Below are positions 15,504-17,763 of a stretch of DNA of 64,000 nt, piece after piece. The notes under the pieces were generated by a model that was given only the letters and a program-made list of their open reading frames with translations, had not been told where the DNA came from and ran no database searches. The translations under genes and the position numbers were made by a program. Positions within the stretch are counted from its first letter, which is position 1. Each line of letters begins with the position of its first letter. The stretch is from an uncultured Carboxylicivirga sp. GTDB taxonomy: Bacteria > Bacteroidota > Bacteroidia > Bacteroidales > Marinilabiliaceae. The DNA lies in contig NZ_OY764327.1 in the NCBI RefSeq assembly GCF_963668385.1, positions 2,232,001 through 2,296,000 on the forward strand, read 5' to 3'.

Positions 15504-15537
15504 AAAAAAAGCCTCGAAGAAAAATCTCCAAGGCTTT
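15504..15537 (-). terminator. tRNA-type terminator copy A
   Basis: Read on the minus strand, AAGCCTTGGAG... folds on ...CTTCGAGGCTT and ends in a T-run. It is a copy of the terminator that follows the intact tRNA-fMet genes, here behind displaced tRNA fragment A. Confidence 0.8.
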
Positions 15538-15541
15538 GTAG

Positions 15542-15589
15542 TAGCGGGGGCCCGACTCGAACGGACGTCCGCCTTGGGCGGATATGAGC
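15542..15589 (-). pseudogene. displaced tRNA-fMet 3' fragment A
   Basis: The part at 15542-15567 repeats the last 26 nt of the intact tRNA-fMet genes (T arm, acceptor strand, discriminator). The eight bases GGCTCATA or a close variant of the anticodon loop lie at the other end. Between them is a 15-nt perfect hairpin (TCCGCC-CAA-GGCGGA on the minus strand, 15568-15582) absent from the real tRNA. There is no 5' half, so it cannot make a tRNA. Confidence 0.85.
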
Positions 15590-15830
15590 TTAGCTGTATC
15601 TTTCGCGGATCAACCACCAAATCTCTTTTCTTGATTTAGCATTCTTCAGCTATTTTTCTCTTAGTAATGCTTCAGATTTTGATTAAAATTTTTCGGGAAA
15701 TAAGAATTTACCAATGCCTGTATTTAATTGTATAACCTTTCGTGGCTAGTTTATTATTAGAAAGTAGTTGTTCGAAATTGGAAGAAGATCTGATGTGAAA
15801 TTTTGGATTTAGGAGAGTATAATACGTAAG
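15590..15830 (-). pseudogene. decayed GIY-YIG nuclease unit A
   Basis: Aligned with the intact copies at 16893-17147 and 17280-17534, this is the same gene with in-frame TAA and TAG codons: one replaces an early Lys codon of the ENFKSKSEA segment, the other the Gln of REKQLK. The C-terminal coding part (AKSRKEIWWLI...ERYS) is still clear. It is the oldest or most damaged copy of the four. Its stop abuts tRNA fragment A. Confidence 0.8.
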
Positions 15831-15849
15831 TCGTAAATATTAAGGTAAT

Positions 15850-15884
15850 AAAAAAAAGCCTCGAAGAAAAATCTCCAAGACTTT
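15850..15884 (-). terminator. tRNA-type terminator copy B
   Basis: A copy of the tRNA-fMet terminator with one stem change (AAGACTTT for AAGGCTTT), behind tRNA fragment B. Confidence 0.7.
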
Positions 15885-15888
15885 GTAG

Positions 15889-15937
15889 TAGCGGGGGGCC
15901 GACTCGAACGGACGTCCGCCTTGGGCGGATATGAGCC
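15889..15937 (-). pseudogene. displaced tRNA-fMet 3' fragment B
   Basis: The same structure as fragment A: the last 26 nt of tRNA-fMet, the inserted TCCGCC/GGCGGA hairpin, then GGCTCATA. One substitution in the acceptor side (GCGGGGGGCC for GCGGGGGCCC on the plus strand). Its end overlaps the stop codon of nuclease copy B. Confidence 0.85.
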
Positions 15938-16190
15938 TAGCTGTATCTTTCACTGATCAACCACCAAATCTCTTTTCTTGATTTAGCTTGCTTCAGCTGT
16001 TTTTCTCTTATTAATGCTTCTGATTTAGATTTAAAATTTTCTGTAAAAAGAACTTCCCAAGGTCTGTATTTAATTGTATAACCTTTTGTGGCTAATTTAT
16101 TATGAGAGAGTAGTCTTTTTTCAAAATTGGAAGAGAATCCGATGTAAAATTCTTGAAATTGGGAGAGTATAGTACGTAAGTCGTAAATAT
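15937..16190 (-). pseudogene. frameshifted GIY-YIG nuclease unit B
   Basis: Most of the 84-residue GIY-YIG protein is intact (YIGFSSNFEKRLLSHNK to SERYS), but a 1-bp deletion near 16151 relative to the two good copies puts the N-terminal strand out of frame. The open frame then runs backwards through the terminator and the upstream tRNA-fMet, giving an artificial 129-residue ORF from 16326 whose first 60 residues are translated tRNA. I treat it as a pseudogene. Confidence 0.8.
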
Positions 16191-16199
16191 TAAGGTAAT

Positions 16200-16234
16200 A
16201 AAAAAAAGCCTCGAAGAAAAATCTCCAAGGCTTT
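16200..16234 (-). terminator. terminator of tRNA-fMet gene 1
   Basis: On the minus strand AAAGCCTTGGA folds on TTCGAGGCTTT and is followed by a long T-run, four bases after the tRNA 3' end. Confidence 0.85.
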
Positions 16235-16238
16235 GTAG

Positions 16239-16311
16239 TAGCGGGGGCCCGACTCGAACGGACGACCTTTGGGTTATGAGCCCAACGAGCTACCAACTGC
16301 TCCACCCCGCA
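16239..16311 (-). tRNA. initiator tRNA-fMet (CAU), copy 1
   Basis: A 73-nt cloverleaf on the minus strand. The acceptor is GCGGGG/CCCCGC with an unpaired T1-T72 end. The D arm is GAGC/GCTC. The anticodon arm is TTGGG-CTCATAA-CCCAA, and the T arm is GTCCG-TTCGAGT-CGGGC. The mispaired 1-72 end and the three G-C pairs next to the anticodon loop are the hallmarks of an initiator tRNA. CCA is not encoded. A promoter lies about 40 bp upstream and a terminator follows. Confidence 0.95.
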
Positions 16312-16351
16312 ATATATCTTAAACAATGTGTTGTCTTTGTTATTGCGGGTG

Positions 16352-16383
16352 CAAATATAGAGGTAATAAAGTTAATGTGCAAA
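16352..16383 (-). promoter_or_regulatory. promoter of tRNA-fMet gene 1
   Basis: On the minus strand TTTG (16380-16383), 20 bases, then TATATTTG (16352-16359): a full match to the Bacteroidetes -33/-7 pattern, giving a leader of about 35 nt before the tRNA. Confidence 0.75.
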
Positions 16384-16806
16384 TTAAATTTTTAAAAAAG
16401 TAACATGTCATCAATGGTGTTGATGTTTTTTAGTTGAACTAATAAACAGATAAATCATTGTAAATGATTTGATAATAATGACATGTTAGTTATGTATTAA
16501 AGGTGATGATTCAATGAGAATTTTTTGCATTTGGGAGAGAATAGTATGTAGATGGTAAGTAGTGTTATCAGGGATTTGCATTTGAGTTTGTCATGATAAT
16601 TACAAACCAGTTATTCATATTGTAGTCGAAGATTGCTCAATGTTTCTTCAATATTTACTCAATTATTTTCGAGAAAATATTACTGAATAAATGATGGAAT
16701 ATTAGTATGAACTATAGTTAAATTGGTGTATTGTGCTTGTATGAAATTATGCCAAGATCTAGAAAATGTACCTGATACTGTTTCATCTCTAATTCCAGAT
16801 ATCGAA
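16384..16806. other. degenerate spacer inside the tRNA/GIY-YIG array
   Basis: No gene. Around 16520-16565 the sequence TTTGGGAGAGAATAGTATG resembles the 5' coding part of the GIY-YIG gene (TTGGGAGAGTATAGTACG on the plus strand), so it may be a nearly erased fifth unit. The remainder is AT-rich without features. A minus ORF at 16718-16909 reads through terminator and tRNA fragment C and is rejected. Confidence 0.5.
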
Positions 16807-16840
16807 ATAAAAAAGCCTTGAAGAAAATCTCCAAGGCTTT
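16807..16840 (-). terminator. tRNA-type terminator copy C
   Basis: A copy of the tRNA-fMet terminator (AAGCCTTG / CAAGGCTT stem) behind tRNA fragment C. Confidence 0.8.
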
Positions 16841-16844
16841 GTAG

Positions 16845-16893
16845 TAGCGGGGGCCCGACTCGAACGGACGTCCGCCTTGGGCGGATATGAGCC
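16845..16893 (-). pseudogene. displaced tRNA-fMet 3' fragment C
   Basis: Perfect copy of the last 26 nt of tRNA-fMet, then the TCCGCC-CAA-GGCGGA hairpin and GGCTCATA, ending in the stop codon of nuclease copy C. Confidence 0.85.
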
Positions 16894-17147
16894 TAGCTGT
16901 ATCTTTCACTGATCAACAACCAAATCTCTTTTCTTGATTTAGCTTGCTTCAGCTGTTTTTCTCTTATTAATGCTTCTGATTTAGATTTAAAATTTTCTGT
17001 AAAAAGAACTTCCCAAGGTCTGTATTTAATTGTATAACCTTTTGTGGCTAATTTATTATGAGAGAGTAGTCTTTTTTCAAAATTGGAAGAGAATCCGATG
17101 TAAATTTTCTTGAAATTGGGAGAGTATAGTACGTAAGTAGTAAACAA
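16893..17147 (-). CDS. GIY-YIG nuclease, copy C
   Basis: An 84-residue single-domain GIY-YIG protein (UPF0213/COG2827 type). The GIY strand is YVLYS (residues 5-9), followed by KIYIGFS with the conserved Y-I-G. Then come FEKRLLSHN with the conserved Arg and the SEALIREKQLK helix that carries the family's Glu. The start is a TTG codon at 17147; no ATG is available. The last codons AGC-TAG run straight into tRNA fragment C. Related proteins can nick or cut DNA, and larger GIY-YIG enzymes act as homing endonucleases. Here a role in copying or inserting the unit is inference. The protein is identical to copy D. Confidence 0.75.
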   Translation of the reverse strand: MFTTYVLYSPNFKKIYIGFSSNFEKRLLSHNKLATKGYTIKYRPWEVLFTENFKSKSEALIREKQLKQAKSRKEIWLLISERYS

Positions 17148-17196
17148 TATTCTAATTTTTCATTTCTACCTCAATATACCTAATATTTAAAACAAT

Positions 17197-17227
17197 AAAA
17201 AAGCCTTGAAGAAAATCTCCAAGGCTT
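17197..17227 (-). terminator. tRNA-type terminator copy D
   Basis: A copy of the tRNA-fMet terminator, lying between nuclease unit C (downstream) and tRNA fragment D. Confidence 0.8.
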
Positions 17228-17231
17228 GTAG

Positions 17232-17280
17232 TAGCTGGGGCCCGACTCGAACGGACGTCCGCCTTGGGCGGATATGAGCC
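17232..17280 (-). pseudogene. displaced tRNA-fMet 3' fragment D
   Basis: The same as fragment C except for one change in the acceptor strand (GCTGGGG instead of GCGGGGG on the plus strand). It contains the inserted hairpin and GGCTCATA. Confidence 0.85.
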
Positions 17281-17534
17281 TAGCTGTATCTTTCACTGAT
17301 CAACAACCAAATCTCTTTTCTTGATTTAGCTTGCTTCAGCTGTTTTTCTCTTATTAATGCTTCTGATTTAGATTTAAAATTTTCTGTAAAAAGAACTTCC
17401 CAAGGTCTGTATTTAATTGTATAACCTTTTGTGGCTAATTTATTATGAGAGAGTAGTCTTTTTTCAAAATTGGAAGAGAATCCGATGTAAATTTTCTTGA
17501 AATTGGGAGAGTATAGTACGTAAGTAGTAAACAA
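17280..17534 (-). CDS. GIY-YIG nuclease, copy D
   Basis: An 84-residue GIY-YIG protein, amino-acid identical to copy C 387 bp away, with the same TTG start, the same upstream 50 bp and the same junction to a tRNA fragment. The identity in coding and flanking DNA means a recent tandem duplication or gene conversion. The gene sits directly behind the terminator of the second intact tRNA-fMet, so it would need read-through or its own weak promoter. See copy C for motifs. Confidence 0.75.
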   Translation of the reverse strand: MFTTYVLYSPNFKKIYIGFSSNFEKRLLSHNKLATKGYTIKYRPWEVLFTENFKSKSEALIREKQLKQAKSRKEIWLLISERYS

Positions 17535-17583
17535 TATTCTAATTTTTCATTTCTACCTCAATATACCTAATATTTAAAACAAT

Positions 17584-17615
17584 AAAAAAGCCTTAAAGAA
17601 AAATCTTCAAGGCTT
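17584..17615 (-). terminator. terminator of tRNA-fMet gene 2
   Basis: AAGCCTTGAAG folds on CTTTAAGGCTT (minus strand), followed by a T-run, just after the tRNA. Confidence 0.85.
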
Positions 17616-17619
17616 GTAG

Positions 17620-17692
17620 TAGCGGGGGCCCGACTCGAACGGACGACCTTTGGGTTATGAGCCCAACGAGCTACCAACTGCTCCACCCCGCA
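17620..17692 (-). tRNA. initiator tRNA-fMet (CAU), copy 2
   Basis: Identical in sequence to copy 1, including the unpaired 1-72 end, the GGG/CCC pairs of the anticodon stem, anticodon CAT and no encoded CCA. About 40 bp of 5' leader is also shared with copy 1, differing at only one position, so the duplication included the leader. Confidence 0.95.
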
Positions 17693-17732
17693 ATATATCT
17701 TAAACAATGTGTTGTCTTTGTTATTGCGGATG

Positions 17733-17763
17733 CAAAAGTACAGAAGTTTTATTTATAACCAAA
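17733..17763 (-). promoter_or_regulatory. promoter of tRNA-fMet gene 2
   Basis: On the minus strand TTTG (17760-17763), 19 bases, then TACTTTTG (17733-17740): a full Bacteroidetes-type promoter. Its sequence differs from the promoter of copy 1, although the leaders downstream are shared. Confidence 0.8.

Follow-up and report, generated by a model that had tools for sequence, protein, structure and literature searches.

The window analysed here is a stretch of 64,000 nucleotides, positions 2232001-2296000 of the 6.27-Mb single-contig genome of an uncultured Carboxylicivirga sp. It carries two genes for the initiator transfer RNA (tRNA-fMet), each followed by two compact units. Each unit contains a small GIY-YIG nuclease gene, intact or decayed, a copy of the 3' part of the tRNA in which a perfect palindrome replaces several bases, and a terminator-like hairpin. 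The arrangement is real, widespread in the phylum Bacteroidota and apparently undescribed. Comparisons of sequences suggest that the unit is, on balance, probably a minimal chromosomal mobile element that homes to one kind of tRNA gene and leaves the tRNA regenerated. A wider proposal, which we put forward tentatively and judge somewhat short of probable, is that Bacteroidota contain an undescribed class of minimal mobile DNA, with these units as one branch, in which single-domain GIY-YIG nucleases of ~80 residues would move hairpin-marked DNA. This class would comprise a tRNA branch with portable homology arms and a regenerated tRNA, a sister branch that would be the missing partner of GTCAT/CGTC-type repeats, and a third branch with terminal inverted repeats.

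Anatomy of the locus and empty sites in the genus

The two tRNA genes are letter-identical and lie on the minus strand. In minus-strand order, each is followed by a terminator-like hairpin and then by two units, in which the GIY-YIG gene, the tRNA 3' piece and a terminator succeed one another (C and D after the first tRNA, A and B after the second, Table 1). The four units coincide with a 300-nt repeat at 15536, 15883, 16839 and 17226, whose identities to the reference copy are 65, 91, 100 and 100%, respectively, and the hairpin ending each unit is terminator-like and of the same type as that of the tRNA itself. An earlier reading of the letters alone (the sequence-only reading) had described two identical initiator tRNAs, each with a pair of GIY-YIG units that end in a tRNA 3' piece, and ARAGORN, Rfam and the repeat analysis bear this out. 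It had also placed a GIY-YIG open reading frame (ORF) in all four units. This stands for C and D, whereas the frame of the first motif is lost through a frameshift in A, stops interrupt the frame in B, and a fifth GIY-YIG remnant between unit D and the second tRNA had been overlooked. The GIY-YIG ORF is the sole coding ORF of the unit, and no Pfam family other than PF01541 was found in the protein shared by C and D. An intron in the tRNA was considered and rejected: both tRNAs are whole, and the Rfam scan of 13000-20000 (E up to 1) contains these two tRNAs only and therefore no intron family, in agreement with the earlier view that the units are not introns. Around the other three GIY-YIG genes of this genome, no tRNA was found within ~1.5 kb (0/3).

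The tRNA-like piece is present in each unit as first described, starting at the anticodon loop (GCTCATA), but it is not a plain fragment. In every piece, GCTCATA is followed by TCCGCC-CAA-GGCGGA and then by CGTCCGTTCG..., while the tRNA at the matching place reads GCTCATA, then ACCCAAAGGT, then CGTCCGTTCG.... Therefore, a perfect palindrome of 15 base pairs (bp) stands in place of tRNA bases 38-47. A pattern search of the whole genome found TCCGCCNNNGGCGGA four times, once per unit, and its reversed control not at all. An explanation by dispersed palindromic repeats (REPs) is rejected for this genome, the palindrome being confined to the four units. Across nine genomes of the genus, TCCGCCN{0,6}GGCGGA has 10 matches, of which seven lie within units and two elsewhere, with one left out of the assignment.

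The site flanked by thiL was read in 14 genomes of the genus (G numbers below denote genomes and L numbers loci). It is empty, with one or two tRNAs and no GIY-YIG match after them, in G013, G016, G018, G019 and G008. It is filled in G000 and, by eye, in G015, where the contig shows the start of the nuclease gene, and filled across two contigs in G014 and, by eye, in G010; G007, G009, G011, G012 and G017 stand outside the filled and empty counts. The tRNAs are identical between the filled and the empty sites read. Comparison of one filled and one empty site shows a duplication around the nuclease gene. Bases 1-120 of L008 (G014, one contig), which hold the tRNA and the terminator, correspond to 3052-3171 of the G013 empty site with 98.3% identity, and bases 387-1347, which hold the piece, the terminator and the flank, correspond to 3086-4049 with 92.9% identity. 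The two matches overlap in G013; thus, G014 contains two copies of an 86-bp stretch that runs from tRNA position 29 through the terminator, with the nuclease gene between them. This fits the layout proposed from the letters alone, in which an element inserted near the anticodon/variable region preserves a complete gene and shifts the old 3' end downstream. Such displacement also agrees with the comparison of the 3' end of the copy with the tRNAs of the hosts at 50 loci, where the own host gives the best match in 43 and a tie in 7. For a Flavobacterium unit (L116), a search of 121 genomes for an empty site returned, among the matches listed, one in-line long match (G467), which stops short of the tRNA.

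Table 1. Features of the initiator tRNA locus (positions in the window)
Feature	Position	Strand	Basis
Intact initiator tRNA-fMet (CAT), first copy	17620..17692	-	ARAGORN (17619-17692); Rfam RF00005 (17620-17692), E 2.1e-11
Terminator-like hairpin after first tRNA (T')	17582..17615	-	by eye
Unit C GIY-YIG ORF, 84 residues, intact	17280..17534	-	PF01541, E 1.6e-17
Unit C tRNA-fMet 3' piece with palindrome	17231..17280	-	sequence comparison
Unit C palindrome TCCGCC-CAA-GGCGGA	17258..17272	.	genome pattern search
Unit D GIY-YIG ORF, 84 residues, intact, protein identical to that of unit C	16893..17147	-	
Unit D tRNA-fMet 3' piece with palindrome	16844..16893	-	
Unit D palindrome	16871..16885	.	genome pattern search
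Fifth GIY-YIG remnant, 74% to the matching stretch of unit A	16509..16561	-	repeat family D4
Intact initiator tRNA-fMet, second copy, identical to first	16239..16311	-	ARAGORN (16238-16311); Rfam (16239-16311), E 2.1e-11
Unit A GIY-YIG gene, first motif out of frame	15937..16190	-	
Unit A listed ORF, reading on from the tRNA	15937-16326	-	
Unit A tRNA-fMet 3' piece with palindrome (15915-15929)	15888..15937	-	
Unit B decayed GIY-YIG gene, stops, two matched stretches	15593..15827	-	
Unit B tRNA-fMet 3' piece with palindrome (15568-15582)	15541..15590	-	

Occurrence in Bacteroidota and nuclease lineages

All surveys of bacterial genomes were made within Bacteroidota. A search of the family with the window protein matched 40 of 71 genomes, and a profile of 20 relatives (A1) matched 199 of 296 genomes of the phylum, each at least 90% complete. 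For the best matches, 80 regions were fetched. The loci analysed were found by likeness to the window protein (L006-L053) or are the best-scoring matches of profile A1 (L094-L203); the resulting set of 153 loci is therefore not a random sample. L002-L005 were left out before counting. L098 duplicates the window and L203 duplicates L108; both were left out of the 153-locus counts and kept in the ORF counts. The 155 loci contain 222 GIY-YIG ORFs, 202 of which have at least 300 bp of upstream sequence (two loci being duplicates); a same-strand tRNA lies within 3 kb upstream in 150 of the 202 and within 200 bp in 104.

An intact tRNA is located upstream of the nuclease gene in 109 of the 153 loci (the 3' class). 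In 14 loci the intact tRNA is located directly downstream, forming a mirror-image 5' class; one locus has both and 29 have neither, 14 of the 29 being cut by contig ends or N and several holding tRNA remnants by eye. All 50 shuffles score below the copy in 126 of 145 units (97 of 108 loci) of the 3' class and in 20 of 21 units (14 of 14 loci) of the 5' class. The sequence-only reading had proposed looking for nuclease genes that stop at a tRNA piece, and the median distance between the two is indeed 0 bp over 126 units, with 93 of them within 30 bp. Thirteen isotypes are represented in the 3' class (Met, Asp, Val, Gly, Asn, Ser, Pro, Ala, Leu, Phe, Arg, Cys and Lys) and five in the 5' class (Ser, Arg, Pro, Ala and Leu). 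Some Val, Gly, Ser and Arg loci have near-whole tRNA copies, in which the anticodon arm is swapped at Val L025/L026, Gly L180 and Ser L157. The palindrome, the mirror class with its 5' piece, the near-whole copies, the 13 isotypes and one case at a transfer-messenger RNA (tmRNA) go beyond the sequence-only reading. In the tmRNA case (L278, 1150-1501 and following), a complete tmRNA gene (Rfam E 2.5e-69) precedes the GIY-YIG gene; thus, the targets may extend beyond tRNAs to other tRNA-like domains.

Arrays of five to eight units with a period of ~315-450 bp were observed in L163 (G310), L108/L203 (G368) and L153 (G127), L163 having five units with a 450-bp period. The unit scores are near-equal in L163 and L108, which may reflect fast tandem growth or conversion. 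A Met unit is also carried by L047 (G486), which is labelled Rhizobium sp.; the label is probably a misnomer, since the genomes returned for its phylum coincide in their match places with the Bacteroidota set.

Y5 and Y16, which we take to be the catalytic tyrosines, are kept together with R26 and E63 in 193 of the 199 uninterrupted units. The arginine and the glutamate of the GIY-YIG domain are catalytic, as stated in the part of PMC2988022 drawn on here. The nuclease is under strong purifying selection, with a median ratio of nonsynonymous to synonymous substitution rates (dN/dS) of 0.11 over 28 non-independent pairs. Profile comparisons with proteins of solved structure returned the UPF0213 proteins 1ZG2 (E 1.8e-13) and 1YWL (E 6.2e-13), and otherwise SLX1 structure-specific nucleases. 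A defence system was considered and rejected, the PADLOC matches to PDC-S14 being weak and partial (E 3e-05 at best, 2 of 5 proteins).

The nuclease lineage tracks the kind of tRNA. A tree of 123 nucleases, which is based on 80 columns, has 11 of 119 inner branches starred and 61 open and contains near-copies that raise the clustering, shows 30 isotype changes against 84.9 after shuffling and a minimum of 12, and none of 200 shuffles was as low. With 24 further tRNA loci, 41 changes were counted against 104.1 after shuffling, again with 0/200 as low. The Met clade mixes host families, and the Leu, Pro and Ser lineages each hold the 5' and 3' classes together; the Ala nucleases do not cluster.

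The strong selection on the nuclease and the near-whole copies with a swapped anticodon arm (L025/L026, L180 and L157) would also suit a domesticated function at the RNA level, in which the copy would serve as a 3' or 5' untranslated element or as a small RNA (a decoy or regulator) and the GIY-YIG protein would act on the tRNA or on that RNA. However, the patchy occupancy in the genus (filled in G000, G014 and G015, empty in G013, G016, G018, G019 and G008), the decay of units A and B and the spread over 13 isotypes look selfish, and many copies, those of the window included, are without a 5' half and cannot be processed as a tRNA. Such a function is improbable.

The palindrome and the proposed route of spread

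In the survey, a palindrome was counted when it was perfect, with a stem of at least 6 and a loop of at most 6. By this rule it is present in 97 of 126 copies of the 3' class (10.6 expected from shuffles) and in 11 of 20 copies of the 5' class (1.9 expected); the same rule is passed by 32 of 125 intact tRNAs, a weaker contrast than that with the shuffles. The palindrome could be placed on the tRNA at 79 of 97 loci with a matched copy, with both flanks closely aligned in 75, and the replaced interval touches the anticodon arm region in 51 of these 75. At the Met loci, the exact borders seen in the window (bases 38-47) recur in 20 of 24; the last kept base is the third after the first anticodon base, and 10 bases are replaced. 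The anticodon arm (27-43, standard numbering) is replaced in Ala (4/4), Arg (3/3, two of them from one genome), Val (4/5), Pro (3/5), Gly-TCC (1/1) and Ser-TGA (1/1) loci. At 8 of 11 Asp loci, positions 50-57 of the T arm are replaced, and in L126 (Phe) the D arm. The constancy of the borders inside one nuclease clade can be explained by shared descent. Over the units counted, the type TCCCGA..TCGGGA occurs 33 times and TCCGCC..GGCGGA 26 times, both recurring in different lineages. Palindromes of these two types are numerous in some Bacteroidota genomes, with 108 TCCCGA-type copies in G085. The genome of the window has few (TCCCGA-type, 8 versus 4 in the control; TCCGCC-type, 4).

The palindrome might be the nuclease's own binding or end sequence, like the REP hairpins for RAYT. 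The unit would then move by recognising hairpins, those of tRNA arms included, and the choice of tRNAs as targets would be a consequence of their natural hairpins. The frequent exchange of exactly one tRNA arm (the anticodon arm in Ala, Arg, most Val and Pro, Gly-TCC and Ser-TGA loci, the D arm in L126) would follow from such transposition, as would the identical palindrome types in different lineages. The GTCAT-type palindromic repeats on both sides of a sister GIY-YIG group point the same way, and so does the structure-specific nature of SLX1 among the solved relatives besides UPF0213. However, transposition of this kind appears unlikely when set against the confinement of the palindrome to units in the genome of the window (4/4) and largely in the genus (7/10, with 2 elsewhere). 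In addition, the nuclease lineage tracks the tRNA kind, and the long tRNA identity outside the palindrome would be superfluous, yet it is retained.

The well-founded but unproven inference favoured here is that the unit spreads by homing to the tRNA gene. A unit of ~350-450 bp would consist of one small GIY-YIG nuclease and tRNA-derived arms. The nuclease would cut one kind of tRNA gene, close to the anticodon arm or the T loop, and a copy already carrying the unit would serve as the template for repair of the break. The left end of the break would pair with the 5' half of the donor's tRNA, repair would copy the 3' half, the terminator, the nuclease gene and the 5' part of the tRNA-like copy, and the right end would pair with the 3' half of the tRNA-like copy. 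The recipient would thereby keep a whole tRNA and gain the nuclease, with its native 3' half and terminator moved downstream; the mirror class would use the same cycle with the 5' and 3' sides swapped. Because the tRNA gene itself supplies the arms, the unit could enter that gene whatever its flanks. The palindrome, which occupies a fixed part of the copy, would mark a target site, read as destroyed, so that the copy would be uncuttable, and a cut in an occupied site would add another unit and give rise to tandem arrays. Homing by repair is favoured because it accounts for the preserved tRNA, the displaced native end, both mirror classes, the independence from flanks and the tandem growth. In L049 and L147, two arrays with clearly differing terminators, the inner copy shares its terminator with the tRNA, whereas that of the last copy differs; this would be expected if the last copy were the displaced native end.

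Several observations weigh against homing. A check of the immunity of the occupied allele showed that the tRNA-like copy is interrupted by the palindrome, yet the whole tRNA of the occupied site does not differ from the one at empty sites; thus, plain target destruction does not explain how the host escapes self-cutting. Homing by itself also does not explain why the replaced part is a palindrome. A less favourable sample of 40 weaker places, taken to escape the best-match bias, showed an intact tRNA adjoining in 24, with the copy beating shuffles in 15 of the 24. The other 16 include nine of the palindromic-repeat group by eye, one of the terminal-inverted-repeat group and one cut locus; Rfam places a tmRNA in L278 (the case described above) and a tRNA further upstream in L295, and in L277, L279 and L289 tRNA-like remnants were seen by eye only, with Rfam silent there at E up to 0.1. 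No vehicle between species was found in the collections searched: the window protein had no match in the plasmid collection, 20 stretches of viral contigs matched a pattern and none was confirmed, and the 10 phage matches are distant (35% identity, Rhizobium phages). Among the multi-unit arrays, the inner terminators resemble T' more closely than the last one does in 5 of 8, with two ties and one array showing the opposite. Finally, the terminators after the tRNA and after the copy are alike (similarity at least 0.82) in 34 of 52 single-unit loci, which local duplication explains equally well.

Passive tandem duplication, in which a GIY-YIG gene beside a tRNA is duplicated along with it and the surplus tRNA copies decay, would produce these alike terminators as well as near-identical tandem units such as C and D of the window and the five units of L163. 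It is already disfavoured and very improbable, since random decay sets no perfect palindrome at fixed borders in several host families and no tie of nuclease lineage to tRNA kind would be expected across 13 kinds. Nor does it agree with the retention of the catalytic residues in all but a few units (193/199) or with the unrelated terminators (similarity below 0.75) in 18 of the 52 single-unit loci.

Known systems and sister groups

The closest known systems to the proposed homing units are free-standing GIY-YIG homing endonucleases of the SegB type. In the parts of the sources drawn on here, SegB of phages T4/T6 is described as a free-standing GIY-YIG homing endonuclease of the phage tRNA region (PMC13096335; review PMC2988022) that cuts inside tRNA genes and promotes segmental (tandem) amplification, with many isotypes near segB homologues (PMC13096335, PMC2988022). 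By these accounts a GIY-YIG nuclease gene adjoins tRNA genes in both systems, whereas SegB resides in a phage genome and the present units are chromosomal, and a tRNA piece with a palindrome is not described for SegB in the same parts of PMC13096335 and PMC2988022. The units further differ in their ~80-residue proteins, in the tie of each lineage mostly to one tRNA kind and in the tRNA being whole. As in SegB-type systems, a GIY-YIG domain with its catalytic residues is present, and occupied and empty alleles exist at one site (G014/G013). The open-access literature (subscription papers and preprints being outside this scope) contained no tRNA-linked GIY-YIG units in Bacteroidota among the matches listed.

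Genomic islands of tyrosine integrases insert at the anticodon or T loop in tRNA 3' ends, restore the tRNA and leave the old 3' end at the far border. The units likewise displace a copy of the tRNA 3' end to the far border; however, they have no integrase, only one nuclease gene of 80 residues, and they show a palindrome in the copy and a mirror (5') class. Group I introns in tRNA anticodon loops are elements of the anticodon region that bear homing nucleases, whereas no intron RNA was found here and the tRNA is uninterrupted. The same single GIY-YIG domain is shared, by sequence profile, with the UPF0213 proteins 1ZG2 and 1YWL, presumably of the kind named YhbQ; to our knowledge UPF0213/YhbQ-like proteins are not known at tRNA genes, although no search was made for such placement.

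If this interpretation of the units is right, many species of one phylum carry a simple parasite of the most conserved genes. Entry into distant species would be possible because the homology arms are the tRNA gene itself, and little harm would be done because the tRNA is rebuilt. The units would represent a bacterial, chromosomal counterpart of SegB and yield a collection of small nucleases that are individually linked to a single kind of tRNA gene, and ORFs running into translated tRNA, as in unit A, would be explained.

REPtrons combine a RAYT transposase with REP palindromes (PMC3733652). Judged by the part of that paper used here, the likeness lies in a small nuclease or transposase gene linked to short palindromes. 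The differences are that the enzyme here is a GIY-YIG rather than a Y1/HUH protein and that the palindrome lies inside a tRNA-like copy and is undispersed in the genome of the window, with dispersed copies in some other genomes. GIY-YIG genes away from tRNAs, which the sequence-only reading had named as evidence that would count against it if they lacked a tRNA fragment, do exist, but in a tree with weak support they cluster separately from the tRNA group. One such sister group has palindromic-repeat flanks (L293, L296-L301, L303, L304 and L027; L314-L343). Ten non-tRNA loci with such flanks, recognised by eye, fall on one side of an unsupported branch in a tree of 164, and 7 of the 10 have GTCATTC on one or both sides within 300 bp. 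Profile A2, built from seven repeat-flanked loci, matched 43 of 89 genomes at E 1e-12. Outside the seed set, GTCAT or ATGAC is located within 170 bp on both sides in 18 of 25 loci versus 10 of 96 overlapping pairs of control windows drawn from these loci, but GTCAT was picked after reading the flanks of seven of these loci, and 18/25 is therefore not an independent test. The same arrangement is found in 2 of 122 loci of the tRNA group. GTCATTC, the first motif, is located within 250 bp on both sides in 3 of 25 loci and on either side in 8 of 25, and a tRNA within 400 bp was found in 0 of 30 loci of the sister group. CGTC REPs were said in 2013 to lack a dedicated transposase, according to the part of PMC3733652 considered here, and the GTCAT-flanked GIY-YIG genes would bear on which enzyme serves them. 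The sister group is a candidate partner enzyme for CGTC-like REPs, the identity of the repeats being judged by resemblance only.

In a further group (L033, L190, L286 and L194/L196), small GIY-YIG genes lie between inverted repeats. The repeats are perfect over 13-19 bp in L033, L190 and L194 and have one mismatch by eye in L286; in L194, a ribonuclease P (RNase P) RNA gene directly follows.

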